Shown here piece by piece: positions 20,376 through 48,706 of a stretch of DNA of 64,000 nt. Origin of the DNA: Gemmatimonadaceae bacterium (lineage in GTDB: Bacteria; Gemmatimonadota; Gemmatimonadetes; Gemmatimonadales; Gemmatimonadaceae); the NCBI GenBank assembly GCA_020846935.1, contig JADLCY010000001.1, positions 682,001-746,000 on the forward strand. The letters are read 5' to 3'. The translations under genes were made by a program, and so were the position numbers. Under the pieces are notes generated by a model. It had not been told where the DNA came from. It did no database searches and worked only from the letters and a program-made list of their open reading frames with translations. Each line of letters starts with the position of its first letter. Position 1 is the stretch's first letter.

Positions 20376-20467
20376 GGGTCGTGAGGTTCGGTCCGCCGCG
20401 TGTACGCTCTCCGCTGCTTCGCCATCGATGGCGCCGTGCCGCACACCGCCATCGAGAGCGCGCAATC

Positions 20468-20534
20468 TTGCAAGCTACGTCGAATCGTGATAGGCTGTAT
20501 CACAGCAGTCGGGAGAACACTAGGACGATTAGTG
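20468..20534 (+). promoter_or_regulatory. Promoter and two operator-like inverted repeats before the XRE gene
   Basis: In the region shared by the divergent helicase and XRE genes, TTGCAA (20468-20473) and TAGGCT (20491-20496) form a possible -35/-10 pair with 17-bp spacing for the XRE gene. Two perfect inverted repeats lie here: GTGATA-N5-TATCAC (20487-20503), overlapping that -10, and CACTA-N7-TAGTG (20518-20534) just downstream. They are well placed for autorepression by the XRE protein and for control of the helicase gene. Binding is inferred from position only. Confidence 0.5.
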
Positions 20535-20580
20535 ATGGGTGTCAAGACTCGGGCGACCTATCAGGCACGGAGGTATCACC

Positions 20581-20907: not shown

Positions 20908-20908
20908 C

Positions 20909-21742
20909 GTGCCGCGGCGGCCGGGGGTGGGAGCGAACGGTCAGGAACGGAACGGACGGCGCGTCGCGCAGCTCTTCCGGCAGGCGCGCGGCCTCCTGGA
21001 CGTGCGCTGCTGCAACCTCGAAGCGATCCTGGCCGAGGATGACATCGACCTCGAGACGTCGAAGGTCGAGCATCCGGGGCACGCGGGGTGCCTGGTGCGG
21101 ACGAGTGGTAGTAGCGGCATCATGGTCCCGAGTGACCAGGTGGGCGGCCGGCGCCGCTTCACCATCGCGCACGAACTCGGGCATTTTCACATCCCGTCGC
21201 ACAAGGATGTCAACGGCTGGTGCACGGACTCTGACCTCCGCGCGTGGGAGGGTGGCCCTCAGCTGCTCGAATGGGAAGCGAACGACTTTGCGAGCGAGCT
21301 GCTCATGCCGGCGCGGCTCTTTGGCGAAGACGTGGACGCGCGCGCGATTTCGGTGGCCTCGGCGAAGGACCTGGCAAGCGCAGCGTGGTACGACGTGTCG
21401 ATACTCGCAGCGGCGCTGCGCATGGTCCACACCACGCGCCAGGCCGCGGCGCTCGTGGTGAGTGCGAATGGCCGCGTGAGCTGGACGGCTCGATCCAGCG
21501 GCTTCAAGCTCTATCTGCCGGGGAAAACAGACCGTTTGCACAGCGACACGCTCGCGTCGGCGGGGTACCGGTCCGACGAGTTCTCGGATGCGCCGTTGGC
21601 CGTGCCCCTCGCGTCATGGCTCGCACACGCGCGGCAAATGCGCGGTGAGCTGCTTGAGAGCACGTACCGGATCGACCGGCTGGAGCAGGTTGTTTCGCTA
21701 CTCTGGCACGTCGATGGTGACGGCGAGGCGAGCGACGGCTGA
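20909..21742 (+). CDS. ImmA/IrrE-family metallopeptidase
   Basis: A 277-aa zinc metallopeptidase-like protein. The HExxH motif is present in FTIAHELGHFHIP near residue 90, with a downstream glutamate in WEANDFASELLMP that fits the third zinc ligand of the ImmA/IrrE family. The C-terminal half has a mixed alpha/beta character. The GTG at 20909 starts one base after the XRE stop. By analogy to ImmA-ImmR pairs it is likely to cleave the adjacent XRE regulator on a stress or phage signal. This partner and the trigger are inferred. Confidence 0.88.
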   Translation: MPRRPGVGANGQERNGRRVAQLFRQARGLLDVRCCNLEAILAEDDIDLETSKVEHPGHAGCLVRTSGSSGIMVPSDQVGGRRRFTIAHELGHFHIPSHKDVNGWCTDSDLRAWEGGPQLLEWEANDFASELLMPARLFGEDVDARAISVASAKDLASAAWYDVSILAAALRMVHTTRQAAALVVSANGRVSWTARSSGFKLYLPGKTDRLHSDTLASAGYRSDEFSDAPLAVPLASWLAHARQMRGELLESTYRIDRLEQVVSLLWHVDGDGEASDG

Positions 21743-21805
21743 TTCCGCGGAGGAACAGCGCTTACCCGTGATCGCGAGCCGCACCAGCTCGAACGCGTTC
21801 CTCAG

Positions 21806-22204
21806 TCAGGTTTCGGAGCCACGGCGTGATGCCTTCCAGCCTTGCAGCGTAGGAAGCGCGTGGATCTCCCTGCCCTTGCGTCGATGAGCGACCCGCAGAT
21901 CGTGCAGGTTCCGAAGGTTGAGCCAGAACTCGGCGCTGGTGCCGAAGAAGCGGCCGAGGCGGAGGGCGGTGTCTCCTGTGATCGCGCGCGTTCCCTTGAG
22001 AACGCGGGTGATGCGGTTGGGGGGAACGGCGAGCTGACGCGCGAGCTCGGCAGCACTCATTCCGATGGCTTCGAGCTCTTCCGCGAGGTGCGCTCCGGGG
22101 TGGATCGGTGCGAGTGTTACGTTGCAGTCGGCCTCGGTCGGCTCCTGGTGCGCGGCTATCGGGTCGAGCACCGTCTCGTTACCGAGATGCTTGGACGGCC
22201 GCAC
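21806..22204 (-). CDS. HigA-family antitoxin / XRE regulator, no HigB partner seen
   Basis: A helix-turn-helix protein of the HigA (VapI) family, with IHPGAHLAEELEAIGMSAAELARQL, then RITRVLKGTRAITGDTALRLGRFFGTSAEFWLNLRNLHDL, the classic C-terminal signature. Starts at GTG 22204 or GTG 22171 are both possible; neither has a strong ribosome site. HigB normally lies directly upstream of HigA, but the upstream ORF (22179-22391) does not resemble it and no RelE-like frame is seen nearby. It is the last gene of the minus-strand defence operon and may act as a second regulator or a leftover antitoxin. Confidence 0.85.
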   Translation of the reverse strand: MRPSKHLGNETVLDPIAAHQEPTEADCNVTLAPIHPGAHLAEELEAIGMSAAELARQLAVPPNRITRVLKGTRAITGDTALRLGRFFGTSAEFWLNLRNLHDLRVAHRRKGREIHALPTLQGWKASRRGSET

Positions 22205-22391
22205 GGACAGGCGCGGACCCTGACTCCCTGAAGGGGCCCAGCTGACCCGTGGCCGTGAGAAACGCTCGCTCGTCCGGATCGCGAGGGGGCCGCGTCATGC
22301 CCGTGACGTCGGTGCGCGCCTGAAGCTCCCGGAGGCGCGCAATGCGCTCAGGCCACAGCAGCTCGAGGTTCGGCAGGCGGATGGTGTTCAT
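22179..22391 (-). CDS. Small hypothetical protein in the defence operon
   Basis: A 70-aa open frame from an ATG at 22391, lying between the nucleotidyltransferase and the HigA-like gene and overlapping the start of the latter by about 26 bases. The N-terminus (NLELLWPERIARLRELQAR) could form an amphipathic helix, while the C-terminus is low in structure (Pro, Arg, Ala rich). No strong ribosome site is visible. I recognise no family. Position in a tight operon is the main support. Confidence 0.35.
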   Translation of the reverse strand: MNTIRLPNLELLWPERIARLRELQARTDVTGMTRPPRDPDERAFLTATGQLGPFRESGSAPVRAAVQASR

Positions 22392-22416
22392 GTGCGATCG
22401 GTGCTCTTGCCTGAAG

Positions 22417-23088
22417 CTAACGCCCAAGGGCGTGCAATTGTTCCAGTAACGCCTGGAGGGCCTCCTCGGTCACGACCTTCCCGGCTGCAGCCATCCCCTC
22501 GAGGGCTTCGAAGGCGTCGACTGCGGACTCCCGTCGCAGCCGATCCCGGAGTGACGCGGTGTCCAGATCCTTCCCGAACGCGACGATCATCTCGATGGCC
22601 TGTTCGCCGTATGATGTGTGCTTCCAATGCTTGAAGCCCACCACGCGGTCCGAGAGCAGCACTTCCCTTACGACGATACGCAGCGGAAAAAGGCCGACGC
22701 GCACCAGCTGCGTAGGGTCCGACATCTCGAGCGATGGCACCTCCACGAACAGTTCGCCGCGTTTCCAGTGCCGGCCGGAGCGTTCGAAGCCGAGGCGGGC
22801 AAAGACGGGGTCGAGGCGGTCTCGCTGAGTCGGTCCGCGAAGCGCCTCGATCACGAGGTCGATGTCGCCGGACTTGAAGATGCCCGGTGCGTGCACTTCA
22901 ATGGCCGAACCGCCAACGAGCGTGACCTGCATTCCTGCGTCTTCGAACGCGCTGGCCACGATCGAGGTGATCATCGCGACCTGGCGCGCGTGGTCGACGG
23001 CATCGGCGGCCATGCCGCCTTCGAGCAACAGGTCGAGGGCGCTCCGTCGCGCGCTGTCGTCCGGAACCTGTTCGTCTCCGTTAGTCAT
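22417..23088 (-). CDS. Nucleotidyltransferase-like protein (AbiEii/MNT type)
   Basis: A 223-aa protein with the pol-beta nucleotidyltransferase signature: TLVGGSAIEVHA near residue 60 followed by FKSGDIDLVIEAL, where the aspartates of DID would bind metal. The C-terminal half is helical. Such enzymes act as toxins in AbiEii- or MNT-type systems by adding nucleotides to tRNA or to a partner protein, but no AbiEi or HEPN gene is seen here. The gene starts nine bases after the methylase stop and is co-transcribed with it, so it probably belongs to the defence system. Its substrate is unknown. Confidence 0.8.
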   Translation of the reverse strand: MTNGDEQVPDDSARRSALDLLLEGGMAADAVDHARQVAMITSIVASAFEDAGMQVTLVGGSAIEVHAPGIFKSGDIDLVIEALRGPTQRDRLDPVFARLGFERSGRHWKRGELFVEVPSLEMSDPTQLVRVGLFPLRIVVREVLLSDRVVGFKHWKHTSYGEQAIEMIVAFGKDLDTASLRDRLRRESAVDAFEALEGMAAAGKVVTEEALQALLEQLHALGR

Positions 23089-23097
23089 TGGCTGAGA

Positions 23098-26000
23098 CTA
23101 TCGCCGGCGGCGGCTCTTTGGCGGCGCGGCGTGCTGGCCAAACAGATCGGTCACGCCGTCGGTGGGCTTCTCCAGCTCGGTGCTGGATGTTGCGTGCGAT
23201 TCAATGGCCGTGGCCGCGGCGCTCGACGCGCCGCCGAGGAGCGCGTCGATGCGCTCGGCGTGCCGGGCGCACTCGTCCCACGATTCTTCCACGCCTTGCT
23301 CGAGTTGCCACGGGAAGAAGCGGGGACCGAGGCGGGAGGCAACAGGCTGGTGTTCCCGGGCGCGATCGTCGTGGCCGAGGCCGTAGTCGGCGAGGCGGAG
23401 GGTTTCGGGAAGCATCCATCCTTCGCCGTCGTTCTGGTTGAGGAATGCGTCGAGGCCGAGGCGTTGGAGGTCGTGGAAGGCGACCTGGGTGAGGACGGTG
23501 TGACGGAGTTCGGGGTCCTTGTCTTTGTCCACGCGCCAGAAGCCTTTCGGATCTACCGTCCGGGCAAACGTGTCGGAACCCAGGAAGTCTCGTGCCTGGT
23601 CACACTCGTTGAGTAGCCAACTCAGCGAGCTAACCTCGAGGCCATAGGTGTGAGCGGATAGTACCTCAACGATCACGCGCAGTCTCCTCCGCTCGTGGGG
23701 AGCAACGGCCCAGAGGCGGCGCCAAGCTTGATCTCGACGGTGCGAGACACTCCTCCAGGTCCGACTCCACCTTACATGGGGGAGGTTCAAGCGAGCCGAG
23801 ACTTCAGAGAGTAGCTGCGTCGCCGCCTCTCGGTTCGGGAGCGGATTCGCATCGAAGACGTGATAGTCAAGGTGGAGACCTCCCAAACGCGCCCGCATGA
23901 CGAAGTCAAACGGGAGGCTATTCAGCACAGCCACGAGTGCGAGGTCGCTCTCGGTACTTGAGGTCCAGAAGATCGCTGCGGTGTCGCCCGTGGGTACGTC
24001 TGACAACACGCTCGCGATCGTTGAACGCGCATTGGTAGCTGAACCAATCCGCATGTGAGAGACCTTTGTACCACTCGCGCGATCCGAACGTGCCGCGTAG
24101 TCATTCACCGCCATGAGGTACTGCGGCTCGATCACCTTGTTGTCCCACGGGATCTCCCGCCACACCGCCGTGCGTCCTTTCCCACGCACCCACCCCTTCT
24201 CACTGAAATCGAACTGGCCGATCATCCTCCCCTCGTACAAGGGCAGCGCCACGTCCCCGTCCGGCCCGATCCACATCCCGTACTCGTTAGGCCTGTACCC
24301 CTTCCGCTCCCACTCCTGCCGCGGCGGAAAGAGCTTGGAGTCGTTTGTCATATCGAACTCCCTTGTATACCTGATCCCCCACCCGTCCGGCCCCTCATCA
24401 CCCAGCAGCACCGAGTTCCGGTACATCTTCTCCAGCACGGCCAGGTCCCGCTCCGACCTAATCTCCAGAATCGCGCTCGACCGCGGGCTGAACTGCGCCA
24501 CCCGCTCCCGCGGATAGGCCAGCACGTGCCGCTCCGCCTCCTGCCAGTCCTCCACCGCGCGATGCATGAACGCCGTGCGAATGGCCGTGGTCTGCCCGCC
24601 CTTGCGCACGATGATCGGGTTGAACTTGAAGCGACTGTCGATGTCGAAGAGCTTCTGCCGGTTCTCGAACCCGAACAGCCACTCCCACCGATTGCGCTCC
24701 AGCAACAGCCGCCGCAGCTCCGTCGATCCCTTGTCGGTGTAGATCCCCGACGGCACGATGAAGCCGAGCACACCGTCGTCCCTCAGCAGGGCGCGCGCAG
24801 CCTCCACGAACATCTTGTAGGTGTTGATGTCCGCCGAGCCCTGGTGACGGTACGGATGCTCCTCGTCGGCATATCCGGCACGCGCCGAGCGCTGCGTGCG
24901 CCAGAACGTGTGCAGCGCCGCGCTATCTGTCGGGGATCGCGAGAGCGCAAACGCGGAATCGCCATCCTGCGCGTCGCCAAACGGGAACGCCACCGAGCGA
25001 TTCCACGTGGAGAACGACTTGAAGCGCGCCTTGTAGCCGATCCACGCCGCTTCGACGCGTGCGTCGCGCTCGAACATTGCCTGCTGGGCGGCGAGCGCCT
25101 GCTGCTTGCCGTACGTGCGATACAGTGGGTCGATGTTGGAGAAGTACTCCTTGGAGTTCGGCTTCTGGATCTCCCACGGCGGATTGCCGACCATCGCGTC
25201 AAAGCCCGAGCGCGGGTCCGTGAACACGTCCGGAAACTCCAGCTCCCAGTGAAAGAAGCGGTGTTCGCTGCGTACCGACCGCACGATCTCGCGCGTCGCG
25301 GCAGGCAGGTCGTGCAGGGTCAGTGGCGTGGGCACGTGAGCCAGCTGGTCTCCCGGCCAGAACCAGATGGCGCACCACGCGTCGAAGGCGTCGCGCAACT
25401 TCGCCAGCTCCGGGTTCTCGGCGATCTTGTGCCTGAACAGCTCCTCGCGCTCGCTCGATGCGTGGACCGGCAGGTCGTGCAGCTTGCGGAACACGGCGAG
25501 CGCGTTGTCGTGCACCGCGTGCGCGGCGGCCACGTCCTGCACCATCGCCGTGCGTAGCTGCGGCCCGCGCGCCTCGATCAGTTCGCGCATCTGGGGCTTG
25601 ATCACGTCGTCGCGCACGTCCTTCCACGCCTGGGTCCAGCGATCGCCCGAGCGCTTCACTTCGCCCTTCTTCTTGCCGCTCTTTGCCTCGTATTCGCGAT
25701 AGTGATGCACAAAGCGGTGGTCCTTGTCGCCGGCGTCGTCCCGCGCAAAGGCCATGACCGGATAGTCCTGAAAGCGGTCGAACCACGTGCCTACCAGCGC
25801 GTTGCCGCAACGCAGCTTGTGATCGAGAAAGCCGAAGGGCAGCCGCCGGTCCATGGTCTCGATCCAGAGCGCCATGCGCGCCAGCTCAACGGCCAGCGGG
25901 TCCATGTCCACTCCATAGATGCAGCGCTCCACCACGTGCCGCTTGAGCCGCGCGCGCAGGCGATCGTCGAAGTCCTCGTGCTCCAGCGGAAGCGGCACGG

Positions 26001-28182
26001 TTTCCTGCGTGGGGTGTTCGAGCGGCTGCCCGTCGGCCAGCTTGACGATGGCGCCATCGGCGCGCGCGTGCAGGCGGCCGTGTGCATGCAGGCTCTCCAC
26101 CAGCGCGTCGGTAACGTAGCGCAGCGATGACACGAGGAACGACCCGGACCCCATGGCCGGGTCACAGATCCTGAGCGCGAGGATCTCCTCGGGCGTCCGC
26201 GGCGCCCAGCGGGTCACCGTGGTCAGGCCCGTTGCGGCGTCGGTCTGTTGCTCGACGCTGGTGTAACACATCGGCTGCAGCGTGCGACGCACGGTGGGTA
26301 CGGCGAGCTGCGGCCGAGTGTAGAACGTGCCGGCACCTTTGCGCGTGCCGCCCCAGCGGACGAGGTACCATTGGCCGGGAAGCACCAGCCGGTAGAGCGA
26401 CTGGGCGCGCTGCCGTACTTCGCTGGCCCAGCGATCGCGCACCACCGGGTCCTGGTCGTTGCGCGGGTAGGGGACGAGCCTGGCCTCCTTCACTGCCTTC
26501 TCGGCCCAGATCGATGCACGCTCGCGGATCACTCGTGCGGTGTCGGCGGCGCCCGCGTCCGCGCCAGTCGGTTCCGCCTCGCTCTCGCTCGTGAGGGCCG
26601 CACCGTCGTCGGTGCCCGACGAGTCGCTGCCCTCGCTCCGGTCATCGGCCTCGTCACCCAACGCTCCATCGGCGGCTTCGTCGTCGTCACCCTCTTCGTC
26701 GGCCTCGCCCTGCCTGGCGCTCTTTCCCAACTTCCCGATGAGCTCTGCGAGCACCTTGGGCGCCATCTCCTGCTCCAGGCGCGACAGGGGCAGCGCCGGC
26801 TCATCGCCAAGCCTGAGAAACACGATCGCATCGTCAGGCGGCGCGCGATGCAACTCGAAGTCGAGCAGGCCCTCGTACAGGATGCCGATGTACTCCGACG
26901 ACAGGTCGGAGAAGTCGACGGGCGCGTTCACCCACGTGCTCGCTCGGCCCTGCCGGACCTTGACCTTACTGACGGTAAGCAGCTCGAGGATCTGGTGGAT
27001 GCAGTGGTCGGAGGGGGCGTTGGCTGGTGATTCGAACGCGGCGATGGCGCGCAACACGCCGTCGGCCGACGACGCATGACCAGGCTCGAAGAGGCCACCA
27101 CCGTATGCAGGAATGGGCAACGCTTCATGCGCCGATCCGCGACGAATGAGGTCGAACAGTCCAAGCATCCGCGGCCAGGCGCTGAACGAATGCCGCAGGC
27201 GCTCGGCGCGCCCGCCAGCGAGACGCGCGAGTTGCTCGCGCAGCCCCTGCAGCCCGTAGCATCCGTGGTAGATGGTGTTGTCGCGCGGGAGCAGGTCGCG
27301 CGCTTCGGCGAAGAGCACGACCACGCAGCGCATGACGAGGCGGGTGGCGGCAATGTACAGTTCGCGACGCGAGACCTGTTGCGGCCCGTTGCCGTCGACC
27401 GCGTCGAGCGCGGCTGCCGACTCCTGGATGAGGCGTTCGACCGCCTGCCGCACGCGTTCGCCGAGCGCGGCGGAGAGTTCGGCCTGGCCGCGTCGCGAGG
27501 CCAGGATGGCGGCAACGAGCGGCGGGTGTTCGCCTGCACGCGGTGGTTGGAGAGCCTGCGGCGACAGGAGCGTTCGGAGCGCGGTGAGCTGCGCGCCAGG
27601 CTCCCCTTCCTCGAACCAGAGATCGGTATCCCACTCGCACCACGCATCGTAGTCGGCGCCGGCGTGCACGAGGCGCCACTGGCGGCCGTTGGTGACCACG
27701 GCGACCGGCTGATTGAGGCGCCGGAGCCACTCGGTAACGCGCGAGACGGCGCGCCGTCCCCGTCCTCGCCCCAGCCGTTCTCCCGCGCCTGCGTGATCGG
27801 CGACGAACAGCGGCAGCACGAACTCCCTGTGGCTGTCGCTGGTGTCGGAGTCGACGAGTGCGTGCCACACGCGGCGCGGCTTGAGGGTCTCGCCGGTGAC
27901 GGCCTTGATCGACCAGCGCACGTCCACCTCGCTGCCTTTTGTCCACCACGACGGCTTGAGCTGCAAAACGTCTTCGAACACGAGGTCGAGCAGGGCGCCG
28001 AGCTGCTCGCCATTGTTTGTGCCAAGTCGCAGCAGGTCGCGCCGGAGTCGATCGGCGAGATGGCCCGGCAACGGCGCTGCCGTGGTAGGGAACGATTCGG
28101 CGATGCGCGCGGGGGCAATGAGCATGCCCCCGTGGACGAGCGATGCCCACCACGTTTCCGGATTCGGGGATGGGGACGTCAT
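23098..28182 (-). CDS. Large Eco57I/DrmMI-like adenine-specific DNA methylase
   Basis: A 1694-aa protein with the gamma-class N6-adenine methyltransferase motifs: motif I CDPAMGSGSF near residue 670 (SAM binding) and motif IV NPPW near residue 998 (catalysis). The N-terminal 450 residues include a segment (KAVTGETLKPRRVWHALVD, then PVAVVTNGRQWRL) shared with long Eco57I-like and DISARM-type methylases; I see no clear PD-(D/E)XK nuclease motif in it. A strongly acidic linker (about residues 485-540, runs of Asp/Glu) separates it from the methylase core. The C-terminal part has target-recognition-like segments. It overlaps the SNF2 helicase gene by ATGA. It likely marks self DNA or acts with the helicases on invading DNA. 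Confidence 0.87.
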   Translation of the reverse strand: MTSPSPNPETWWASLVHGGMLIAPARIAESFPTTAAPLPGHLADRLRRDLLRLGTNNGEQLGALLDLVFEDVLQLKPSWWTKGSEVDVRWSIKAVTGETLKPRRVWHALVDSDTSDSHREFVLPLFVADHAGAGERLGRGRGRRAVSRVTEWLRRLNQPVAVVTNGRQWRLVHAGADYDAWCEWDTDLWFEEGEPGAQLTALRTLLSPQALQPPRAGEHPPLVAAILASRRGQAELSAALGERVRQAVERLIQESAAALDAVDGNGPQQVSRRELYIAATRLVMRCVVVLFAEARDLLPRDNTIYHGCYGLQGLREQLARLAGGRAERLRHSFSAWPRMLGLFDLIRRGSAHEALPIPAYGGGLFEPGHASSADGVLRAIAAFESPANAPSDHCIHQILELLTVSKVKVRQGRASTWVNAPVDFSDLSSEYIGILYEGLLDFELHRAPPDDAIVFLRLGDEPALPLSRLEQEMAPKVLAELIGKLGKSARQGEADEEGDDDEAADGALGDEADDRSEGSDSSGTDDGAALTSESEAEPTGADAGAADTARVIRERASIWAEKAVKEARLVPYPRNDQDPVVRDRWASEVRQRAQSLYRLVLPGQWYLVRWGGTRKGAGTFYTRPQLAVPTVRRTLQPMCYTSVEQQTDAATGLTTVTRWAPRTPEEILALRICDPAMGSGSFLVSSLRYVTDALVESLHAHGRLHARADGAIVKLADGQPLEHPTQETVPLPLEHEDFDDRLRARLKRHVVERCIYGVDMDPLAVELARMALWIETMDRRLPFGFLDHKLRCGNALVGTWFDRFQDYPVMAFARDDAGDKDHRFVHHYREYEAKSGKKKGEVKRSGDRWTQAWKDVRDDVIKPQMRELIEARGPQLRTAMVQDVAAAHAVHDNALAVFRKLHDLPVHASSEREELFRHKIAENPELAKLRDAFDAWCAIWFWPGDQLAHVPTPLTLHDLPAATREIVRSVRSEHRFFHWELEFPDVFTDPRSGFDAMVGNPPWEIQKPNSKEYFSNIDPLYRTYGKQQALAAQQAMFERDARVEAAWIGYKARFKSFSTWNRSVAFPFGDAQDGDSAFALSRSPTDSAALHTFWRTQRSARAGYADEEHPYRHQGSADINTYKMFVEAARALLRDDGVLGFIVPSGIYTDKGSTELRRLLLERNRWEWLFGFENRQKLFDIDSRFKFNPIIVRKGGQTTAIRTAFMHRAVEDWQEAERHVLAYPRERVAQFSPRSSAILEIRSERDLAVLEKMYRNSVLLGDEGPDGWGIRYTREFDMTNDSKLFPPRQEWERKGYRPNEYGMWIGPDGDVALPLYEGRMIGQFDFSEKGWVRGKGRTAVWREIPWDNKVIEPQYLMAVNDYAARSDRASGTKVSHMRIGSATNARSTIASVLSDVPTGDTAAIFWTSSTESDLALVAVLNSLPFDFVMRARLGGLHLDYHVFDANPLPNREAATQLLSEVSARLNLPHVRWSRTWRSVSHRRDQAWRRLWAVAPHERRRLRVIVEVLSAHTYGLEVSSLSWLLNECDQARDFLGSDTFARTVDPKGFWRVDKDKDPELRHTVLTQVAFHDLQRLGLDAFLNQNDGEGWMLPETLRLADYGLGHDDRAREHQPVASRLGPRFFPWQLEQGVEESWDECARHAERIDALLGGASSAAATAIESHATSSTELEKPTDGVTDLFGQHAAPPKSRRRR

Positions 28183-31100
28183 CGTGTGGCAGGAGCCGCG
28201 GGGAAGCGGATCTCGATGGCGACGGGGAACACCTGCGCGGCACCGCGCAGGGCAAAGCGCCGGGGAAGCAGTTGCTCCAGCACGCGCGCCTGTTCCCGCT
28301 TGAGTTGCGCGAGCAATTCCTGGTAGTGCGTACGCCGGCGATGCAGTTCGTCTTCGAGGTTGGCCAGCTCCTGTTCCTGTTGTCGCGCTATTTCGGGGAA
28401 CAGGGCACCCTGGCGCAGGTCGGCCAGCAGAGCCTCGCGTTCTCGTTCGAGCCGGGCAAGGGTCGTCTCCTGCATGGCGCGCTCCACTTCCTTGAGGCGA
28501 TGCCTGAAGCGCTCCTTTTCGGTGGACAGGGCAGCCTTGGCCGCCTCGGTCACGTCTCGGCGCATACGAGTGGTCAGGTCTGCCGACAGGCGCTCGAGGA
28601 CAGCGGGGAGTTCAGGCCCGACGTCGAGCCAGAGGTCGGAGGCTTGTGCGGCGAGGTGCGTGTCGTCGGTGTCGAGCGGACGGTCATCGGCCGGAGCGAT
28701 GGGTGGCAGCGGCTCGCCGATCACGCCGTTCTTTACGGGCAGGCGGATCGTGCGCACCCAATGGTGAAACGGCTCGCGCAGTTCGTTGATCGCGAGTTCT
28801 TCCACGGTGAGGAGCAGCACGGCGTCTGCGCCGTCGGGCATCGCACCGGTGCGGGCGGTCCATCGGCTGACCGTGGTTCCCTGGTGTCCTCCCGGGAATC
28901 GAGCCCGGGCGAACATGGCGAGCGCGTGGCGAAAGAGCGGGTGGCCGAGGTGCAGCAGTCGCGTGTCTTTGGCCGGCCTGAAGACGGGCCTGCCCGCGAG
29001 ATCCTTTACGAAGACCTTTGGATCGAACGCGAGCGCGGCGAGGGCACCGGAGACGCGTGCGGTGGGACTGATGCGAACCGCGTCGTCGATGATGTCGGTC
29101 CATTGCGGCGGCAGCGGGTGCCTGAGACGAAAGCATCCGCGTGCGTCCGGGCCGTCGAGCCGCGGGCTGCCGAAGTTGATGCCGAGAGCGACGTCGAGGG
29201 TCTGCCGGAGGGAATCGGGCGAGAGGTCGATTTCGCGGCAGAACTCCTGTAGTCTCTCCGATTCGTCTTCGCCGGCTTCGGCGAGGCGCGGAACGCGGGT
29301 GCGGCCTCTTCGTCGGTCGACATCGGCATCCAGCGCAACGGTGACCGACGAGGTATCGAGCTGGTCGGTGAAGCGGCGCTGAAAGGCGGCGTCGAACACT
29401 TCACCCATGGCGCCCAGGTCCTCGCGAATGGCGTTGACCTTGCCCACCACGTGACCGAGGAAGCTCAGGTCGGCGTCGTCGTTGCTGGTGAAGTGGAAGA
29501 TGGTGACGTCGCGCGCCTGCCCATGGCGGTCGAGACGGCCGTTGCGTTGTTCGAGGCGCGCGGGGTTCCAGGGCACGTCGTAGTGCAGCAGCAGGCGTGC
29601 GGTCTCCTGCAGGTTCATGCCTTCCGAGGCGGCGTCGGTGGCCACGAGGACGCGGACGGGGTCGTCGGTGTCGTTGAACGCCGCGGTGATGGCCTCGCGG
29701 TCGCAGTCGTCGCCGCCAAAGAGGGCGAGGATCGCGCGACCATCGTCCTTGAACTCCTGCCTGAGGCGCCGCAGCAGGGTATCGAGCGTCGTCTTGTACT
29801 CGGTGAAGACGATGAGGCGCTCGTCGGGGTGCCATTTCGAGCCCTGGCGCAGGCGATGTCTGACCAGCGCGACGAGGCGATCCCAGCGTTCGTCCTCGCC
29901 GGGGGGCACGTCGGCGGCATCGCCACGCAGGCCTAACGCGGCGAGTGCGTCGTCGATGGCGGTGATCTGCTCAACGAGATCGCCGGCCATGGGCTTGAGC
30001 CACGCGCCCGCCGTGCGGCTCGCGTGCCGTCCGCGGCCGGTCTTCTCGCCGTCGTCAGCAAGGTCTTCCTCGCTGGCACGCATCGCCGCGCCCATCTCCG
30101 ACGGGTGCGCGGCTTCGGCGTCGGCAAGGCCCTCCTTGAACCGGAACCAGGAGTCGGCGAAGGTGGTGGGGCAGGAAAGCAGCCGCTTGTTGAGCACTTC
30201 GAGAGCAAACGTCCCCGCAACCTGCTCGGCGCGTTTAGCTGCGGCCGCACGCGCGCGCACGGCCCGGCGAAACTCGCCAAACGCGCTGGCCAGCTGCTGC
30301 TCACGCGCGCCGAAGAAGAGCGGCACCGGTTCAACGAAGCGCTGCGCAAAGCGTGCGGGCTTACCTGCCTTTTCGTCACTCTCGTTGATCTCGCGCTTGA
30401 GCCGTCGGATCACCACGTCTTCGACGCGCTTGCGTTCTTCCGGTGTGAACTCGGGCTTCTGGGTGAAACGCACGGGGTCGAGCAACTCGAGAAGCCCGGA
30501 GAAGGAGCGCGTGTGCCCGTTGTGCGGTGTGGCGGTCAGGAAGAGCTTGTGCTCGAACCAGGGACTGATGAGCCGCAACATCTCGCACAGGTCGCTGTCA
30601 TGTCCGAAGTTGGACGGCGTGAGGTTGTGCGCCTCATCGACGATGAGGAGATCCCACGGCAGGAGTGCCGATCCCTCGGGCTGGCGGCACGCCGACGTGA
30701 AGCGTTCGAGTACGTCCGCCTGCTTGAGGTAGTGGTAGGACGTGATGATGCGCGGGAAGGTTCGCCACGGGTTGGCATCGAGCCCGAGGCGCTTCTGCAG
30801 TTTGTGCGTCTCGTCGCGATCGACCACATCGAAGCCCAGGGAGAACTTGTCTCGCATCTCCTGGTGCCATTGGTGTCGTAGCGACGCTGGAGAGAGGATG
30901 AGCACGCGCCGCACGCGGCGCCGCAGGAGCAGCTCGGTGAGGACGAGGCCCGCCTCGATCGTCTTGCCGAGTCCGACGTCATCGGCCAGGAGCAGGGAGA
31001 CGCGCGGCATGCGCAGCGCGTGGAGGACGGGGACGAGCTGAAAGTCCTCGACCTGCACGGCGCCAAAGACGGGAGCGGCGATGGGTGCGCTGGCGCCGGG

Positions 31101-31418
31101 CCCTGGGAACGGTGTGACGGCGGACCAGCGGCAGGCGCGCACCAAAGCGTCGAAGTCCGCCGGTGGCATCGCGGGTTCATCGGCCACACGTGGGAGGGCC
31201 GTCGGTTCGAGGAGCGACGCATGACGTTCACGCTCCCAGAGCACGGTGTCCTCGGCGCTTCCCTCGCTGCCCGAGTACTCGACGCGTACGAGGTGCAACC
31301 GGCCTTCGCCTGGTGCGTCGTACGGTTCAACGGCGGTGACAATGCCGCGTCGGTTGCGGACCGTCGCCAGCATGCCGACACGCGGGTGGTTCGGCTCCTT
31401 GTGGTTTGGCAGGGTCAT
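28179..31418 (-). CDS. drmD: SNF2/RapA-like helicase, DrmD type
   Basis: A 1079-aa superfamily 2 translocase. The N-terminus has a small beta domain (VGMLATVRNRRGIVTAVEPY) found in DISARM DrmD proteins. Walker A is DVGLGKT (147-153), motif II VDEAH, motif III TATPHNGH; the second lobe carries IVFTEYKTT, ATDAASEGMNLQ and RNGRLDRHGQ. The last 180 residues are a long Glu/Arg/Leu-rich coiled coil. It is the first gene of the operon and overlaps the methylase start by ATGA. In DISARM, DrmD is an accessory helicase of class 1 systems. Here its partner helicase is of the DruE/YprA type, and no drmB or drmC gene is seen. Confidence 0.85.
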   Translation of the reverse strand: MTLPNHKEPNHPRVGMLATVRNRRGIVTAVEPYDAPGEGRLHLVRVEYSGSEGSAEDTVLWERERHASLLEPTALPRVADEPAMPPADFDALVRACRWSAVTPFPGPGASAPIAAPVFGAVQVEDFQLVPVLHALRMPRVSLLLADDVGLGKTIEAGLVLTELLLRRRVRRVLILSPASLRHQWHQEMRDKFSLGFDVVDRDETHKLQKRLGLDANPWRTFPRIITSYHYLKQADVLERFTSACRQPEGSALLPWDLLIVDEAHNLTPSNFGHDSDLCEMLRLISPWFEHKLFLTATPHNGHTRSFSGLLELLDPVRFTQKPEFTPEERKRVEDVVIRRLKREINESDEKAGKPARFAQRFVEPVPLFFGAREQQLASAFGEFRRAVRARAAAAKRAEQVAGTFALEVLNKRLLSCPTTFADSWFRFKEGLADAEAAHPSEMGAAMRASEEDLADDGEKTGRGRHASRTAGAWLKPMAGDLVEQITAIDDALAALGLRGDAADVPPGEDERWDRLVALVRHRLRQGSKWHPDERLIVFTEYKTTLDTLLRRLRQEFKDDGRAILALFGGDDCDREAITAAFNDTDDPVRVLVATDAASEGMNLQETARLLLHYDVPWNPARLEQRNGRLDRHGQARDVTIFHFTSNDDADLSFLGHVVGKVNAIREDLGAMGEVFDAAFQRRFTDQLDTSSVTVALDADVDRRRGRTRVPRLAEAGEDESERLQEFCREIDLSPDSLRQTLDVALGINFGSPRLDGPDARGCFRLRHPLPPQWTDIIDDAVRISPTARVSGALAALAFDPKVFVKDLAGRPVFRPAKDTRLLHLGHPLFRHALAMFARARFPGGHQGTTVSRWTARTGAMPDGADAVLLLTVEELAINELREPFHHWVRTIRLPVKNGVIGEPLPPIAPADDRPLDTDDTHLAAQASDLWLDVGPELPAVLERLSADLTTRMRRDVTEAAKAALSTEKERFRHRLKEVERAMQETTLARLEREREALLADLRQGALFPEIARQQEQELANLEDELHRRRTHYQELLAQLKREQARVLEQLLPRRFALRGAAQVFPVAIEIRFPAAPATR

Positions 31419-31703: not shown

Positions 31704-32852
31704 CTACGCGCCGGCCTGTTTCACCTGCGGCTGCGGCGCCACGAACGTGAGCACGCGCCTCGGGTTCTCCACGAGGATCTTGTGGATTGTTTCATCGGTG
31801 ACTCCCAGCTTCCTGAGCGCCGGCACCACCATCGTCGAGATGTACGCGAAGCCGCCGCCACCGTTCTTCGTGAGCTGCGCCTGCGTGCACACGTCGTGCG
31901 CCACCAGAATGCGCTCCGTCAGCCCCCCGTCGATCAGCGTCTTGATGCTCGCCGCGAGGCGTTCGGCGCCGCGCGCGAGCTGCACGGCGCTGCTGTCCGC
32001 GCTCCGTACACTCCCGATGTAGTCGAACTCGACATAGGCACCACGATCGGTATACCGCTTCATCGCGGCCAGGTCACCGGTGCCGGTGTGCCCCATCACG
32101 ACGTGGTTGAGGTCGACGCCCTCCGAGGCCACGATGTCCAGTGCACGCAGCATCTCGTCCTGTGACGCAAAGCTGTGAAAGCTGATCGGAGCCCCGGTGA
32201 GACGGGACGCGCGCGCGCTCGCCCGAATGCTCTTCTGCTCGTTCTCGGTGAGCGGAATGCGTGCGCCAAAGGCTCCCACCCCCACCTCGCCGATGATGCC
32301 CGAGCGCACGTTGGTTCCTTGCGCGCCCTGCGTGATGTCACGCAGAAGAATCGCCGTGAGCTCCTCGACCGTGCGTTCGTTCATGTCCTTGGGGTGATAC
32401 GGGCGCATGTACCACCCGGCGCCCATCACCACGTGCAGGCCCGAGGCCTGAGAGACGCGCCGCAACCAGTCCGGATTGCGACTCAGCCCGAAGTTGGTGA
32501 CGTCGACGATGGTGCCGCCGCCCGCGTCCTTGAACTTCCGGATCTCGGCGAGCTGGATGTCGAAGTCGGTGAGGCCGCCGCTTCGCGCCGTGTCGCCCGG
32601 CGTTGGCGGCACCGGCTTTCCGTCGGCTGTGGCCGGTGCCTTGAAGTCGATGAAGATGTGTTCGTGCATGAGCGTCGCACCCGCCTGCGCGGGATCGATG
32701 GGCCCGGTCACGGTGAGGATCTTGCCCGCGAGGTTGGGCGCGGCAGCAGCGCCGTTGCCCTGCGCACCCGCGACAGCGCTCGCCGAGAGCGCTACGGCGG
32801 ACAGCAGGGCCCCACGCAGTCCTCGGGACATCAGCTCGATCATGCGGTGCAT
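31704..32852 (-). CDS. Secreted phosphotriesterase-family metal hydrolase (paralogue 1)
   Basis: A 382-aa TIM-barrel amidohydrolase with a signal peptide (processing after AGA near residue 30). The binuclear metal site is complete: HEH at 63-65, a glutamate in GIIGEVG at the position of the carbamylated lysine of true phosphotriesterase, His in ISFHSF, His in VVMGHTG, and the final Asp in LVAHDVC. Glu replacing Lys is known in several phosphotriesterase-homology proteins, many of which are lactonases or unassigned. Two paralogues lie at 45299-46498 and 46502-47689. The substrate is unknown, and the location is probably periplasmic. Confidence 0.88.
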   Translation of the reverse strand: MHRMIELMSRGLRGALLSAVALSASAVAGAQGNGAAAAPNLAGKILTVTGPIDPAQAGATLMHEHIFIDFKAPATADGKPVPPTPGDTARSGGLTDFDIQLAEIRKFKDAGGGTIVDVTNFGLSRNPDWLRRVSQASGLHVVMGAGWYMRPYHPKDMNERTVEELTAILLRDITQGAQGTNVRSGIIGEVGVGAFGARIPLTENEQKSIRASARASRLTGAPISFHSFASQDEMLRALDIVASEGVDLNHVVMGHTGTGDLAAMKRYTDRGAYVEFDYIGSVRSADSSAVQLARGAERLAASIKTLIDGGLTERILVAHDVCTQAQLTKNGGGGFAYISTMVVPALRKLGVTDETIHKILVENPRRVLTFVAPQPQVKQAGA

Positions 32853-42226: not shown

Positions 42227-45200
42227 CTATCTCCCCTGCGCGGCACGCGCTCGCCACACGCCTGCCTGCTCGGGCTTGCCCCACCGTTCATACAGATTGG
42301 CCAGCCACACCGCATTGATCTTCCACGCCGGTGCGGCTGGCGCACCGAGAGTGCGCAGTCCACTCTCCGTCGACAGGAGAATCGGCTCCGCTTCGCCGTA
42401 CTGCCCGGCCCTCGTCAGGCAGAACCCCAGCACGCCCCGCACGCGCAATGGCAGGGCCTGGGTCGAGTCGCGCGGCAGGTACGGCAGGCTCTCCCGGATC
42501 ATCGCGTTCCCGCGTTGCACGGCGCCGGTCGCACAGAGGTCGATCGCCATCGCGCGGCGCACCCCGATGATGATGGCGTCGGTCGGCGGACGATTCGACA
42601 GGATCGACATCGCTTCCTCCAGCTGCGGGATCGCGCGCGTGGTGTCGCCCGTCGCCTCGATCGCGGCCGCGAGGTTGGCCAACTGTATGCCCGCCTGTGC
42701 ACTCCGGGGTCCATACACCTTGCGGCGAATGTCGAGACCGAGGACCGAGAGCGATTCGGCGCGGGCAGGTCGCCCGCGTGCGACGGCGATCGCGGCCTGC
42801 TTTTCGTACGTGTCGCCGACCGACCAGTGTTCCGGCCCAAACGCCGCCCGCCGACCAGCCAGGGCCTCGTTGAGCATCGTCTCCGCCTCGTCGTACTTGC
42901 CCTGCTTCTGCAGCGCCCAGCCCAGTTCGGCCTGAGCGTACAGCGCCTGGTCCTGGATACCGGCAGCTTTCCAGAGTGGCATGGCCTCGCGCAATCTCAC
43001 TTCGGCCGCGGGCCAATCCTCGCGCCGACTGGCGAGGATCCCCAGGTCCATCAACGTGGCGGCAACGGCCGGACTGCTGTTGCCGAGCACCGATCGGCGC
43101 GACGCCAGCGCCTTCTGGAACAGCGTGTCGGCTTCGTCAAAGCGACCCTGGGCCTGAAACAGCCTGGCCAGCTCCGTACGCGAGAGCTGCACGTCCGGAT
43201 GGTCGCCGCCAAGCAGCTTCTCCCGCATATCGAGCGATGCGCGGATGGGTTCCTCTGCCTCCTCGAGTTTGCGCTGCGCCACCAGCGCCGTACCCAGACG
43301 CCCCTGGATGTTGGCGATCTGCGGATGTTCGGCACCGTAAAGCGTGCGGGCGATGGGGAGCGCCTCCCGGACGGTCTTCTCCGCGTTGGCGTTGTCCGGT
43401 TTGTAGAGATAGGCGTCGGCGAGGCTGATCATGCCCTCGACCACGGTCGGGTGGTTCGTGCCGTACACGCGGCGCACGATGGCCAGCGACTCCTCGAGCA
43501 ACGGCAGCGCTTCGGGTGAACGCGCGGTGTAGCTGAAGAACGTGCCTAACGCCTTGAGGCGCTGAGCGACTTCGAGGCCGGTGCCGCCGTGTCGCCGACG
43601 GGTGAGCTGCAGCGCCTCGCGATACCGCTTCTCGGCGCCCGGGAAGTCCCCCTGCATGTACCGGGCGTCACCAAGCGCCTGCAGCGAGCTGGTGATGCGA
43701 TCGTCGTCGGGCCGCATCGTCCCGCGCATGCGCGAGAGCGCCTCATTCAGTCGACGCTCGGCCAGGGGATAGTCACCGGTGGCCTGGGCCAGCTTCCCCA
43801 GTTCGTCGGCGCTCTCGGCGACCGAGGGATCGGTCGCGCCCAGCACGCGGCGACGAATGGTGTACGCGCTGTCGAGCTGCGGCCTTGCCTGATCGTAGAG
43901 CCCAAGGCTGAAATACGTGCGGCCGATGGTCGATGCAACGGCGGCGCGTACCTCGGGCTGTCCGGCGAGCGCCGTCGTGGACGTGTCGGCGGCCGCGCGG
44001 TCGAGCAGCTCGCGCACGCTCATTTCCTTCCCGCGCGCGTTCGCGGGGTCGGATGAGGCGAGCATGCGCTGCAAGAACGTGTTGATGGCCTGCGCCTTGG
44101 CCGCCTCTCCCGTCGCGCGCTCGGCGCTGGCCACGGCCGCGGCCTGTTCGCGCGTCGCTTCCGCGCGCGCCGAGTCGGCCACGCGAAGTGCTGAATCGGC
44201 CACGGCACGACGACGCTCGGCCAGGGTGCTCGCCGCCACCGCTTCAGCGCGTCGCACCTCGGCCGTGCGTTCGGCGGCCCGCGCGCGGATCGCCTGATAC
44301 GTGCTCACGATCGTACCGGCAACGAGCACCACTCCGGCGGCGCCGATCCCGGCAACGAGAGCGCGATTTCGGCGCGCGAACTTGCGCATCTGATACACCG
44401 CACTCGCGCGACGCGCCACGATCGGTTCGTCGCGCAGGAACCGTCTCACGTCGCCGGCCAGTTGATCCGCCGAGTCGTAGCGGCGTGCCTTCTCCTTGTC
44501 CAACGCCTTCGCCACGATGACTTCCACGTCACCCGACAGGCGCCGATCGATGGAACTCAGTGGGGCGGGCTCGTCCACCAGGATCACGCGGACCGCCTCG
44601 ATGATCATCTTCCGGCTCAGGTCGTACGGCAGCCGCCCCGACACCAACTCGTAGAGGATCACACCCAGCGAATACACGTCGCTCCGACCGTCGATGTCGG
44701 TCGGGTCTGCGTTCACCTGCTCGGGACTCATGTACTGCAGCGTTCCCACGACTTCGCCCACCGTGGTCGCGCGCGTCGCCTGCATGTCGGCGTCGGTGAG
44801 CCGAGCCACCCCGAAGTCGAGAATCTTCGGCTGCCCCGCGGCGTCGACGAGGATGTTGGCCGGCTTGAGATCGCGATGCACGACGCCCTGCTGGTGCGCG
44901 TAGTGCACCGCATCGCAGATGCGCGCGAACACCTCCAGCCGCTGAGCGAGCGTCAGCCCGTTGCGTTCGGCGTACGTGGTCAGCGGTTCGCCACGGACCA
45001 GCTCCATCGCAAAGTAGGACTGCGAGCCGTAGGGCCCTTCGTCCGTACCCGCCTCGTAGATCTGCGCGATGCCCTGGTGCTGCAGTCGGCCAAGCACCTC
45101 GGACTCGCGCGCGAAACGACGCACGAGCTGCGGCGACAGGAAGTCCTCACGAATGACCTTGAGCGCCACCCGGCGGTGCGGCTGGTCCTGCACCGCCTCG

Positions 45201-45271
45201 TAGACCGTGCCCATGCCGCCCTCTCCCAGCGTCCCGACGATCCGGTACTTCCCGATGTTCGTTGGATGCAT
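42227..45271 (-). CDS. TPR-tailed Ser/Thr protein kinase
   Basis: A 1014-aa bacterial Hanks-type kinase. The kinase domain (8-280) has the glycine loop GEGGMGTV, Lys38 in VALKVI, HRDLKPAN (132-139), DFG (152-154) and GTLQYMSPEQ. One TM helix follows (about 323-349), then a helical Ala/Arg/Glu-rich segment and a long array of TPR repeats (about 440-1000) such as ALGDARYMQGDFPGAEKRYREAL. This layout, with sensing or scaffold repeats after the TM, is common in Acidobacteriota and Gemmatimonadota. It starts 27 bases after a phosphotriesterase-like gene and is probably in the same operon. Confidence 0.92.
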   Translation of the reverse strand: MHPTNIGKYRIVGTLGEGGMGTVYEAVQDQPHRRVALKVIREDFLSPQLVRRFARESEVLGRLQHQGIAQIYEAGTDEGPYGSQSYFAMELVRGEPLTTYAERNGLTLAQRLEVFARICDAVHYAHQQGVVHRDLKPANILVDAAGQPKILDFGVARLTDADMQATRATTVGEVVGTLQYMSPEQVNADPTDIDGRSDVYSLGVILYELVSGRLPYDLSRKMIIEAVRVILVDEPAPLSSIDRRLSGDVEVIVAKALDKEKARRYDSADQLAGDVRRFLRDEPIVARRASAVYQMRKFARRNRALVAGIGAAGVVLVAGTIVSTYQAIRARAAERTAEVRRAEAVAASTLAERRRAVADSALRVADSARAEATREQAAAVASAERATGEAAKAQAINTFLQRMLASSDPANARGKEMSVRELLDRAAADTSTTALAGQPEVRAAVASTIGRTYFSLGLYDQARPQLDSAYTIRRRVLGATDPSVAESADELGKLAQATGDYPLAERRLNEALSRMRGTMRPDDDRITSSLQALGDARYMQGDFPGAEKRYREALQLTRRRHGGTGLEVAQRLKALGTFFSYTARSPEALPLLEESLAIVRRVYGTNHPTVVEGMISLADAYLYKPDNANAEKTVREALPIARTLYGAEHPQIANIQGRLGTALVAQRKLEEAEEPIRASLDMREKLLGGDHPDVQLSRTELARLFQAQGRFDEADTLFQKALASRRSVLGNSSPAVAATLMDLGILASRREDWPAAEVRLREAMPLWKAAGIQDQALYAQAELGWALQKQGKYDEAETMLNEALAGRRAAFGPEHWSVGDTYEKQAAIAVARGRPARAESLSVLGLDIRRKVYGPRSAQAGIQLANLAAAIEATGDTTRAIPQLEEAMSILSNRPPTDAIIIGVRRAMAIDLCATGAVQRGNAMIRESLPYLPRDSTQALPLRVRGVLGFCLTRAGQYGEAEPILLSTESGLRTLGAPAAPAWKINAVWLANLYERWGKPEQAGVWRARAAQGR

Positions 45272-46501: not shown

Positions 46502-47689
46502 TCACTCCCCTCCGGCTCGGCCGGATCGTGACGCCTGAGGCGCCACCAGCGTGAGCAGTCGCCGCGGGTTCTCCACGACGATCGTATTGAGCTGTGCGTC
46601 GGTGAGCCCCTGCCGCTTGAGATAAGGCAGGAACGACTCCGCGATGAACGAGTACCCCGTGCCACCGTAAGCCTTGAGGTTGGTGCGCGCCTCGATGCCC
46701 TGCGACACCACGATGCGGTCGGCGTATCCCGCCTTCACGAGCTCGACGATCGTTCTTGCCACCTCGGAATCGATCGGCCACGTGCGGGTCACCAGCGGCG
46801 GCGTGCCGAGCATGTCGAACGCGATCGTGGCCCCGCGATCGAGCAACGGCCTGAGGTAGGCGAGGTCTCCCGCGTACGCATCCCCGTGCCCGAGCACCGC
46901 ACGGCGCAGGTCCGCGCCCTCGGACTGGAGCACGTCGAGCACGCGGCCGTGCTGGCGGAACCCGGCAGAACCGGAAAGCAGCACGGCTGCCCCGGTCTCG
47001 CGACTGGCGCGGCCCACCGCACGGAGCACGCGGTCGGCCGCCGCAGAGTCTGCACCGCCCGCGATCCCGACCTCCCCGATGATCCCGGCGCGCACATCGG
47101 TGCCTTCCACGCCCACCGTGATGTCGCGAACCATCTCGTCGACCAGACTCTCGATGCTGCGGTCACCGAGCCCCGTGGGCCACCAGCCGGCCTGGTACCA
47201 GCCCGTGCCCATCACGAGCTGCACGCCCGTGGCCCTCGCCACCCGCTGCAGACCAGCGGGGTTTCGCCTGAGGCCGATGCTGGTCACGTCCACCAGCGCC
47301 GTCCCGCCTCGCCGCTTGAACTCGGCCAGCTCGGCCACGGCGGTCGCCTCGGCGTCGAGCAGCTGGTTTTCCCGGTTTGGGGCGCCCAGCATCACGTCGG
47401 AGAGGATGTCGATGGTGAGCGGGGCGTTGTAGAGCCTGACGGCCGTGGCTCCGATCGGTCGAGTGCGTCCGGCTGCTTTCCAGCGATCGGGCTCGGTTTC
47501 CGGCAGACTGAAGTCCGCCAGCACGTGCTCGTGCATCAATGTGTGCCCAAGCTGCGCCGGATCGATCGGGCCCAGCACCGTTTGCACCTTGCCCGTGGCG
47601 TCCCCGGCGCGTTGCGCCTGGGCATCGATCGGTGCGCCGAGTGCCAGCCAGATGCCGGTGACCGCCGCGGCCGCGTGAACGCGCCTCAT
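46502..47689 (-). CDS. Phosphotriesterase-family pseudoenzyme (paralogue 3)
   Basis: A 395-aa secreted protein aligned along its length with the other two paralogues. HEH (53-55), Glu in GIIGEVG and His in AVLGHGD are kept. The His of xSFHxx is absent (the segment reads AVLLSGSAGF), and the final HD of LLSHDIC is replaced by QG in VVSQGIE. With one metal-ligand His and the catalytic Asp lost, it is unlikely to be an active phosphotriesterase; the frame is intact, so a binding or regulatory role is possible. It lies between the GH18-like gene and paralogue 2 in one run. Confidence 0.85.
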   Translation of the reverse strand: MRRVHAAAAVTGIWLALGAPIDAQAQRAGDATGKVQTVLGPIDPAQLGHTLMHEHVLADFSLPETEPDRWKAAGRTRPIGATAVRLYNAPLTIDILSDVMLGAPNRENQLLDAEATAVAELAEFKRRGGTALVDVTSIGLRRNPAGLQRVARATGVQLVMGTGWYQAGWWPTGLGDRSIESLVDEMVRDITVGVEGTDVRAGIIGEVGIAGGADSAAADRVLRAVGRASRETGAAVLLSGSAGFRQHGRVLDVLQSEGADLRRAVLGHGDAYAGDLAYLRPLLDRGATIAFDMLGTPPLVTRTWPIDSEVARTIVELVKAGYADRIVVSQGIEARTNLKAYGGTGYSFIAESFLPYLKRQGLTDAQLNTIVVENPRRLLTLVAPQASRSGRAGGE

Positions 47690-47731: not shown

Positions 47732-48706
47732 CTACCTGGCGCCGCGAATCGTCTGGATCGCCGCCCACGCCTCCCGGGTGCGCCACGTCGAGCCTCCCAG
47801 CTGCGCGTCCCAGAGCGACAACCCCGCCTTGCCCGAGTCGCGCAGCCACGCCAGGTGCTCCATCGACGCGTTCCCGCGCCACTGATTTCGGTGCGCCGGC
47901 ATTCCGATCATCAGCTTGGCCACGTCGCTCCCGCTCACCACCTCCTGCGCGCCGAACGCGCGCCACGCCTCGGCGTGCGCCCCGAGTTCTTCGTAGCCCA
48001 TGGAGTTGATTCCGTCCACCAGCGGAAAGAGATCCTTCCACCACGACTGGTTGGGCGCGTGCCACACGTACGCAAAGGTGTCGACCGTGAGGTGCTTGCC
48101 ACGCGCGCGCAGTTCCCTGGACAGGAGGCGCACGAACTCCAGGTACGGCGCCTTGTCGGCGTCGAGTTCACCCGTGCCTTCGAGGTCGAGATCGATCCCA
48201 TCGAGGCCCAGGCGATCCATTTCGGCGATGAGACTCGACACGAATTCGGCCCGCCGATCCACGAACGCCCGCCGCGCCCAGGGCCAGTCCCACGCCTGCG
48301 TGGTCACGTTGTAGTTGTAGACGCAAAGCAGCACGCGCACGCCGTTGGCGTGGCCCCAGTCGCGGAGCCGTCGCACGGCATCGTCGCTCGTGTCGTCGCC
48401 GCGCTTGACCCGCGCCACGCCGCTGCCGTCAGCCGTCGGCTCCCAGAACTGGAGCGCGAGGTGCGTGAGGCCGTCCTTCATCCCCAGCCCGTCATACGAC
48501 TCCTCCAGGCGCGCTTTAGAGGCACCAACGCCGTAGGGTGGCACCCACGTCATCACCATGCGCTCCGTTTGGCGAAACCGCGGCGTCGAGGTCGGCGACA
48601 GGCGCTGCTGAGAGGCAGACCCAGTGCATCCCAGGGCGAGGCCAGCCGAGAGCGCAGCCGCGACGACGTTGCGCGGCGACGCGAGTCGCCCGATGCACCA
48701 TCTCAT
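47732..48706 (-). CDS. GH18-like glycoside hydrolase lipoprotein
   Basis: A 324-aa extracytoplasmic protein. A lipobox LALGC near residue 27 ends the signal. The GH18 signature DGxDxDxE is present as LDGIDLDLEGTGE (about 168-180), with the catalytic Glu in place, and MGYEELG matches the later conserved Tyr-bearing strand. Family members hydrolyse chitin-like or other N-acetylglucosamine chains, or cleave glycoprotein glycans (endo-beta-N-acetylglucosaminidase type). It lies 42 bases upstream of the phosphotriesterase pseudoenzyme gene and is probably co-transcribed with it. Confidence 0.83.
   Translation of the reverse strand: MRWCIGRLASPRNVVAAALSAGLALGCTGSASQQRLSPTSTPRFRQTERMVMTWVPPYGVGASKARLEESYDGLGMKDGLTHLALQFWEPTADGSGVARVKRGDDTSDDAVRRLRDWGHANGVRVLLCVYNYNVTTQAWDWPWARRAFVDRRAEFVSSLIAEMDRLGLDGIDLDLEGTGELDADKAPYLEFVRLLSRELRARGKHLTVDTFAYVWHAPNQSWWKDLFPLVDGINSMGYEELGAHAEAWRAFGAQEVVSGSDVAKLMIGMPAHRNQWRGNASMEHLAWLRDSGKAGLSLWDAQLGGSTWRTREAWAAIQTIRGAR

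Follow-up and report, generated by a model that had tools for sequence, protein, structure and literature searches.

Why does a phosphotriesterase-family gene that has lost part of its metal site stand, with a whole reading frame, next to an intact paralogue? This question is raised by the gene P1, which lies in a window of 64,000 nucleotides of a Gemmatimonadaceae bacterium (GCA_020846935.1, contig JADLCY010000001.1, positions 682,001 to 746,000). P1 (46502..47689, minus strand) encodes a probably secreted protein of 395 aa that was assigned to the PF02126 phosphotriesterase family by profile, alignment and an AlphaFold model, and in which two metal ligands are lost. The paralogue P2 (45299..46498, minus strand) lies 3 bp downstream of P1 and is followed after 27 bp by a Ser/Thr kinase gene with TPR repeats on the same strand (42227..45271), and a further paralogue, P3, is found at 31704..32852 on the minus strand. 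The original prediction had placed three phosphotriesterase-family proteins at these positions, and the PF02126 profile confirmed all of them. The 4.5-Mb genome has four PF02126 genes, namely these three on contig 1 and a fourth on contig 2. In the alignment, P2 and P3 retained every metal ligand, as had been claimed, and the fourth copy likewise kept all six. The P1 frame was also whole as described, being open across 395 codons with no frameshift found; its N-terminus looked signal-peptide-like as judged by eye, and the protein scored 217.1 bits against the PF02126 profile (curated cut-off 22.4) with positions 1-298 of 298 covered.

We next compared the metal site of P1 with that of the Brevundimonas enzyme (PTE). 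As described in PMC10619419, PTE binds one metal through His55, His57 and Asp301 and the other through His201 and His230, carboxylated Lys169 bridges both metals, and activity ends once either metal is removed. The P1 equivalents of His55, His57, Asp301, His201, His230 and Lys169 are H53, H55, G331, S239, H268 and E206, respectively. Specifically, P1 retains the HxH pair H53 and H55 (motif LMHEH, 47525..47533), the bridging Glu E206 (motif IIGEV, 47072..47074) and H268 (motif LGHGD, 46886..46888), all read from the minus strand, and the alignment showed two ligand changes, H239S and D331G. Codon 239 (46973..46975, minus strand) is TCC, giving Ser at the position of the beta-metal His after strand 5, and codon 331 (46697..46699, minus strand) is GGC, giving Gly at the position of the alpha-metal Asp after strand 8. 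Judged from the sequence, each of the two metals of P1 would have one ligand missing. The original prediction had read the first loss as SG instead of FH and the second as QG instead of HD; the loss of the His held, although its register was one residue out (LS is aligned with FH), and the loss of the terminal Asp agreed with the alignment. P1 thus lacks the full set of six ligands (HxH, Lys/Glu, His, His, Asp) that marks enzyme-type PF02126 members, and because of H239S and D331G we treated it as a PF02126 member by descent and did not file it as a PTE-type enzyme.

For these comparisons, 39 loci were collected, and four were dropped before the counts (L051 and L052, which are distant and have odd-length ORFs, and L054 and L055, which are partial). 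L018 is the orthologue of P1 in the genome G015 and was therefore set apart. The remaining 34 loci together with ten other proteins made up 44 relatives; the ten were P2, P3 and the fourth copy of the window's own genome (G000), P2 and P3 of both G015 and G080, and one protein each from G168, G183 and G296. Both H239 and D331 were present in 44/44 relatives, indicating that their loss in P1 (hereafter G000_P1 where orthologues are compared) is not ordinary variation in this set. In the column of residue 206, Glu replaces the Lys of PTE in 43 of the 44; the exception, L049, has Cys there with Lys adjacent, and is probably a protein of the carboxylated-Lys type whose alignment is shifted by one column. 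Among PF02126 proteins found later and standing outside the 44, inspection by eye found both the His and the Asp in L080, L084 and L085, and the Asp in the fragment L086. Note that the second G060 protein and L087 are not in the ligand tally. The genome G060, which belongs to the same family, carries a tandem PF02126 pair (G060:C22:62-1950, L080/L090), of which the first protein looks like the carboxylated-Lys type.

The P1 protein was confidently predicted to fold as a TIM barrel. The AlphaFold model had a mean pLDDT of 88.3 and a pTM of 0.88, showed the (beta/alpha)8 barrel of PTE structures, and was matched by Foldseek to 3k2g, PTER, PHP and PTE. The best match by sequence (E 1.2e-66) and by fold (Foldseek E 4.4e-34) was 3k2g, annotated as a resiniferatoxin-binding, phosphotriesterase-related protein of Rhodobacter sphaeroides, which has the His and the Asp that are absent from P1. 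The second-best sequence match was PTER (9efa), an N-acetyltaurine hydrolase of the same family. PTER resembles P1 in using Glu as a metal ligand (E169 as given in PMC11374699; E206 in P1) but differs from it in that two metal ligands are missing in P1. Many of 15 active-site point mutants of PTER were inactive according to PMC11374699. Furthermore, the Arg, Arg and His corresponding to R204, R233 and H300 of PTER (mouse numbering, as given in PMC11374699) were absent at the matching motifs of both P1 (SGSA, HGDA, GIE) and P2 (HAGG, HSGG, DIC), where 9efa has HPGR, HIDR and DIH, these residues having been located through 9efa by motif and spacing. P1 therefore does not carry the residues of a PTER-type N-acetyltaurine hydrolase.

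To obtain the distribution of P1, we searched 179 genomes of the family with P1 as query at E 1e-30. The gene was found in 3/179, the window's own included (G000, G015 and G080, of three genera). A search of 395 genomes taken from the phylum gave six with a match at E 1e-50, of which only the same three exceeded 45% identity to P1; a pattern-based contig scan gave more than 45% identity only in G015 and missed G080. Plasmids yielded 193 matching records, none of which reached 60% identity to P1 (36.7-39.6% among the 5 matches listed). G015_P1 is 60.4% identical to P1 and keeps all six ligands. G080_P1 is 55.0% identical and has lost H239, D331 and also E206, with Ser at 206, Ala at 239 together with a short loop deletion, and Gly at 331; its frame is whole. 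The gene is thus not broken down in its relatives. In 3/3 genomes carrying P1, P2 is the next gene downstream and has the same orientation; with the likeliest start codons, the two genes are separated by 3 bp in the window and by about 140 bp and about 30 bp in G015 and G080, respectively. P2 without P1 was not seen in the 179 genomes as searched with P1 at E 1e-30, and the three genomes with the pair are also those that carry P3. Such a constant association of two genes is what is looked for in a prozyme-like partner.

The original prediction had taken P1 for a duplicated copy of its neighbour, and this did not survive the phylogenetic analysis. P1 and P2 are 40% identical. The P1 proteins formed one clade (100/98), and P2, P3 and the fourth copy grouped together (99/96) and then with Chloroflexota proteins (98/95), leaving P1 outside. 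P1 and P2 are accordingly old paralogues, and an origin of P1 as a recent tandem copy of P2 was rejected. The order within the P1 clade was less simple. The P1 tree joined G000 with G080 (96/94), the rpoB tree placed G000 and G015 in one clade with G080 outside (100/99), and the P2 tree joined G015 with G080 (100/99), so that a single species order for the three genes was rejected. Shared derived residues of P1 at parsimony sites numbered 11 for G000 and G015, 6 for G000 and G080, and 4 for G015 and G080. When the ligand columns were removed, the grouping of G000 with G080 stayed (95/95), and both alternatives were not rejected (AU p 0.078 and 0.081). The ligands may have been lost once, with exchange between lineages, or twice in parallel; both courses are possible. 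As a side observation, the rpoB loci (L067-L078) matched their profile in two pieces within one frame in 9/9 genomes searched, pointing to an insertion close to profile position 1100.

We then tested how far the rest of P1 has been kept. At the 50 columns conserved in at least 90% of sequences, G000_P1 keeps 47, G015_P1 50 and G080_P1 43. Ligands account for two of the three departures in G000_P1 and three of the seven in G080_P1 (hypergeometric p 0.035 and 0.029, respectively, for a test picked after the data were seen). At the 80% and 70% columns, G000_P1 keeps 69/74 and 87/106, and G080_P1 64/74 and 84/106, as compared with 65/70 and 88/103 for G000_P2 and 65/69 and 85/104 for G000_P3. When 14 closer relatives were used for the comparison (75 columns), departures numbered 14 in G000, 9 in G015 and 18 in G080. 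The losses in P1 centre on the active site, and catalytic residues are lost while fold residues are kept, as in a pseudoenzyme. General decay of the window's P1 was not favoured, given that it retains non-ligand conserved columns much as P2 and P3 do; away from the ligands, decay has gone somewhat further in G080_P1 than in G000_P1.

The action of selection on P1 was examined with a codon model with branch omegas on six P1 and P2 genes under two P1 topologies. Fixing omega at 1 cost 63-68 units of 2dlnL on G000_P1 and 46 on G080_P1. The fitted omegas were 0.02-0.07 on every branch class, and ligand-less branches were not above background, under saturated dS. Since synonymous change was saturated and several branch lengths stood at their upper bound, what can be taken from this model is limited to its rejecting neutrality along the branch as a whole. 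The ligands may also have been lost late on the branch, in which case the low omega would date from before the loss. Under this saturation the model is a weak test of selection on P1. In relative-rate tests against G015_P1, G000_P1 had more changes with 6/6 outgroups (p < 0.05 with 1), and G080_P1 had more changes with 6/6 (p < 0.05 with 3), a tendency towards faster change in the dead copies that counts against their being kept. Among the controls, P3 showed no significant difference, and P2 was significant with 2/6 outgroups, G015_P2 being faster than G000_P2. Because the P2 control was itself uneven, the relative-rate test is not clean.

These data bear on the possibility that P1 is becoming a pseudogene, that is, that the enzyme is dispensable and the ligands are drifting away in a frame still unbroken. 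The ligand-less copies do sit on longer branches of the P1 tree (0.47 for G000 and 0.54-0.55 for G080, against 0.19-0.21 for G015), the gene is sporadic in the family, one orthologue is intact with two altered, and G080_P1 retains fewer conserved columns than the others at both the 90% and the 80% level. However, the change from His to Ser at 239 takes two substitutions, from CAC or CAT to TCC, which means that the loss is not one fresh mutation, and both ligand-less copies have kept their frames. Together with the non-ligand columns of G000_P1, which are kept like those of P2 and P3, and with the rejection of omega 1, albeit under saturation, this makes ongoing pseudogene formation rather unlikely in our view.

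A remodelled and perhaps single-metal site, in which HxH, E206 and H268 stay, the acid has moved from 331 to 333 and P1 acts as an altered or weak hydrolase, would account for the retention of four of the six ligands in the window's P1. Both copies with G331 carry an acid at residue 333 (46691..46693, minus strand), two positions beyond the missing Asp: a Glu in G000_P1 and an Asp in G080_P1, either of which may be a displaced acid. The intact G015_P1 has Ser there. Among the 44 relatives, only two have Asp at 333, and both have D331 as well. A displacement of ligands to nearby positions was thus not demonstrated by the alignment, although E333 leaves a trace that would fit one. The residual site is not conserved, however, since E206 is lost in G080_P1. 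Moreover, H247 (46949..46951, minus strand), which is His in 3/3 P1 proteins and 0/44 relatives, was rejected as a displaced stand-in for H239 because G015_P1 has both. We therefore consider a remodelled hydrolase distinctly improbable. That the window genome was misread or misassembled is extremely improbable, even though Asp to Gly takes a single base change and this species is represented by one genome: His to Ser requires two base changes within one codon, and G080 has lost the same two residues. In addition, neither ligand was in place in the other two reading frames around both sites, which excludes a local compensated frameshift as the cause of the losses; a frameshift or assembly artefact behind P1 was rejected on these grounds.

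The reading towards which we lean is that P1 still folds but is catalytically dead, and that it has been retained for some function other than catalysis, possibly in partnership with P2. By analogy with the biochemistry of PTE and PTER, P1 is probably catalytically dead: probably exported, it would form a TIM barrel unable to build a two-metal hydrolytic centre. Its role may be to bind a ligand, to pair with P2, or both, and it might thereby modulate or stabilise the P2 enzyme. Since G015_P1 keeps all ligands, P1 probably descends from an active enzyme, and being dead is not a constant feature of P1; catalysis would have been lost afterwards, once or twice, on the lines leading to the window genome and to G080. 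That P1 is known from three sequences only counts against its being dead and kept. The original prediction of a pseudoenzyme beside an intact paralogue therefore stands as regards the whole frame, the lost ligands, the lack of general decay in the window's copy and the tandem arrangement in 3/3 genomes, and falls as regards duplication of the neighbour; the regulatory or mixed-dimer role that it proposed is plausible as a hypothesis.

Pairing with P2 was further considered through conservation within P1 and the PTE dimer surface, which PMC10619419 describes as residues 60-79 and 301-313. Conservation in windows along the P1 trio did not follow that in P2, P3 or the Chloroflexota proteins (Spearman -0.05, -0.15 and 0.04), as compared with 0.52 for P2 versus P3, 0.43 for P2 versus Chloroflexota and 0.29, not significant, for Chloroflexota versus P3. 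The weak windows of P1 adjoin lost or ligand sites, namely 207-218 after E206, 231-242 around S239 and 327-338 around G331, where identity in the trio was 0.08, 0.25 and 0.33 and that in P2 was 1.0, 0.75 and 1.0. The trio was stronger at 291-326 and 339-350 (0.58-0.67 identical) and at 63-110 (0.42-0.58), the last being a stretch where P2 had 0-0.5 with gaps. Residues such as W70, R85, Y87, H247, V300-R302, W304, I306 and S308 are common to the trio but occur in no more than 5% of the 44 relatives. The PTE segment 60-79 matches roughly the start of the P1 stretch 63-110. The segment 301-313 matches about 331-343 of P1, over half of it in the weak window 327-338, and this weak second segment speaks against a conserved PTE-like interface. 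Because the evidence on the pairing surface is mixed, we infer a partner role for P1 with corresponding reserve.

Inactive homologues that serve an active partner are known from other systems. PTE and dihydroorotase are members of one superfamily. The pseudo-dihydroorotase pDHO of the Pseudomonas aeruginosa ATCase is described in PMC7053772 as an inactive metal-hydrolase homologue needed by its active partner; that partner, however, comes from another enzyme family, and the complex was shown experimentally, whereas P1 is known from sequence and a model. The prozyme of Trypanosoma brucei AdoMetDC is, as described in PMC5201418, a catalytically dead paralogue that activates an active one, in an unrelated and eukaryotic enzyme and with an interaction shown there, which for P1 and P2 we only infer. 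A bolder proposal would make P1 a bacterial prozyme of the phosphotriesterase family, whose metal site was lost, perhaps repeatedly, as its job became to form mixed dimers with P2 and so to shape the substrate entrance of P2, with G015 as a surviving state before catalysis was given up; as a whole we regard this as unlikely. Should P1 be dead yet needed, its three orthologues would form a natural before-and-after set for the passage from an enzyme to a non-catalytic partner, the metal site being whole in G015_P1 and not in the other two, and each standing in tandem with the same intact paralogue. PTE itself is much used in studies of enzyme evolution. Among the open-licence papers searched, we found none joining the terms phosphotriesterase and pseudoenzyme.

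The surroundings of the P1-P2 pair were also compared. An S15 peptidase gene occurs in the P1-P2 neighbourhood of all three genomes, and the window kinase (42227..45271) has a 59% identical homologue that is near, not beside, the pair in G015; the block around the pair therefore seems to be common to the genomes but reshuffled. The S15 peptidase of the window (12889-14730, plus strand) is 81% identical over 588 aa to the gene near P1-P2 in G015 and 87% identical over 239 aa to the gene adjoining P2 in G080. As far as compared, its closest counterpart is that of G080, whereas rpoB does not place the window genome with G080; this hints that genes have been exchanged within the family. Just upstream of P1 and on the same strand, 47735-48625 encodes a glycosyl hydrolase family 18 protein that looks lipoprotein-like by eye, and a BNR-repeat (sialidase-like) protein is encoded near P3 (33551-34768, plus strand). 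Between the S15 peptidase gene and P3, the stretch 14934-31418 (minus strand) holds three large ORFs with PADLOC matches to a DruE-like SNF2 protein, a type IIG restriction enzyme/DrmMI-like protein and a DrmD helicase, and is a probable defence island. The stretch between the S15 peptidase and P3 genes is smaller in G015 and, as judged by eye, encodes a putative DNA methyltransferase.
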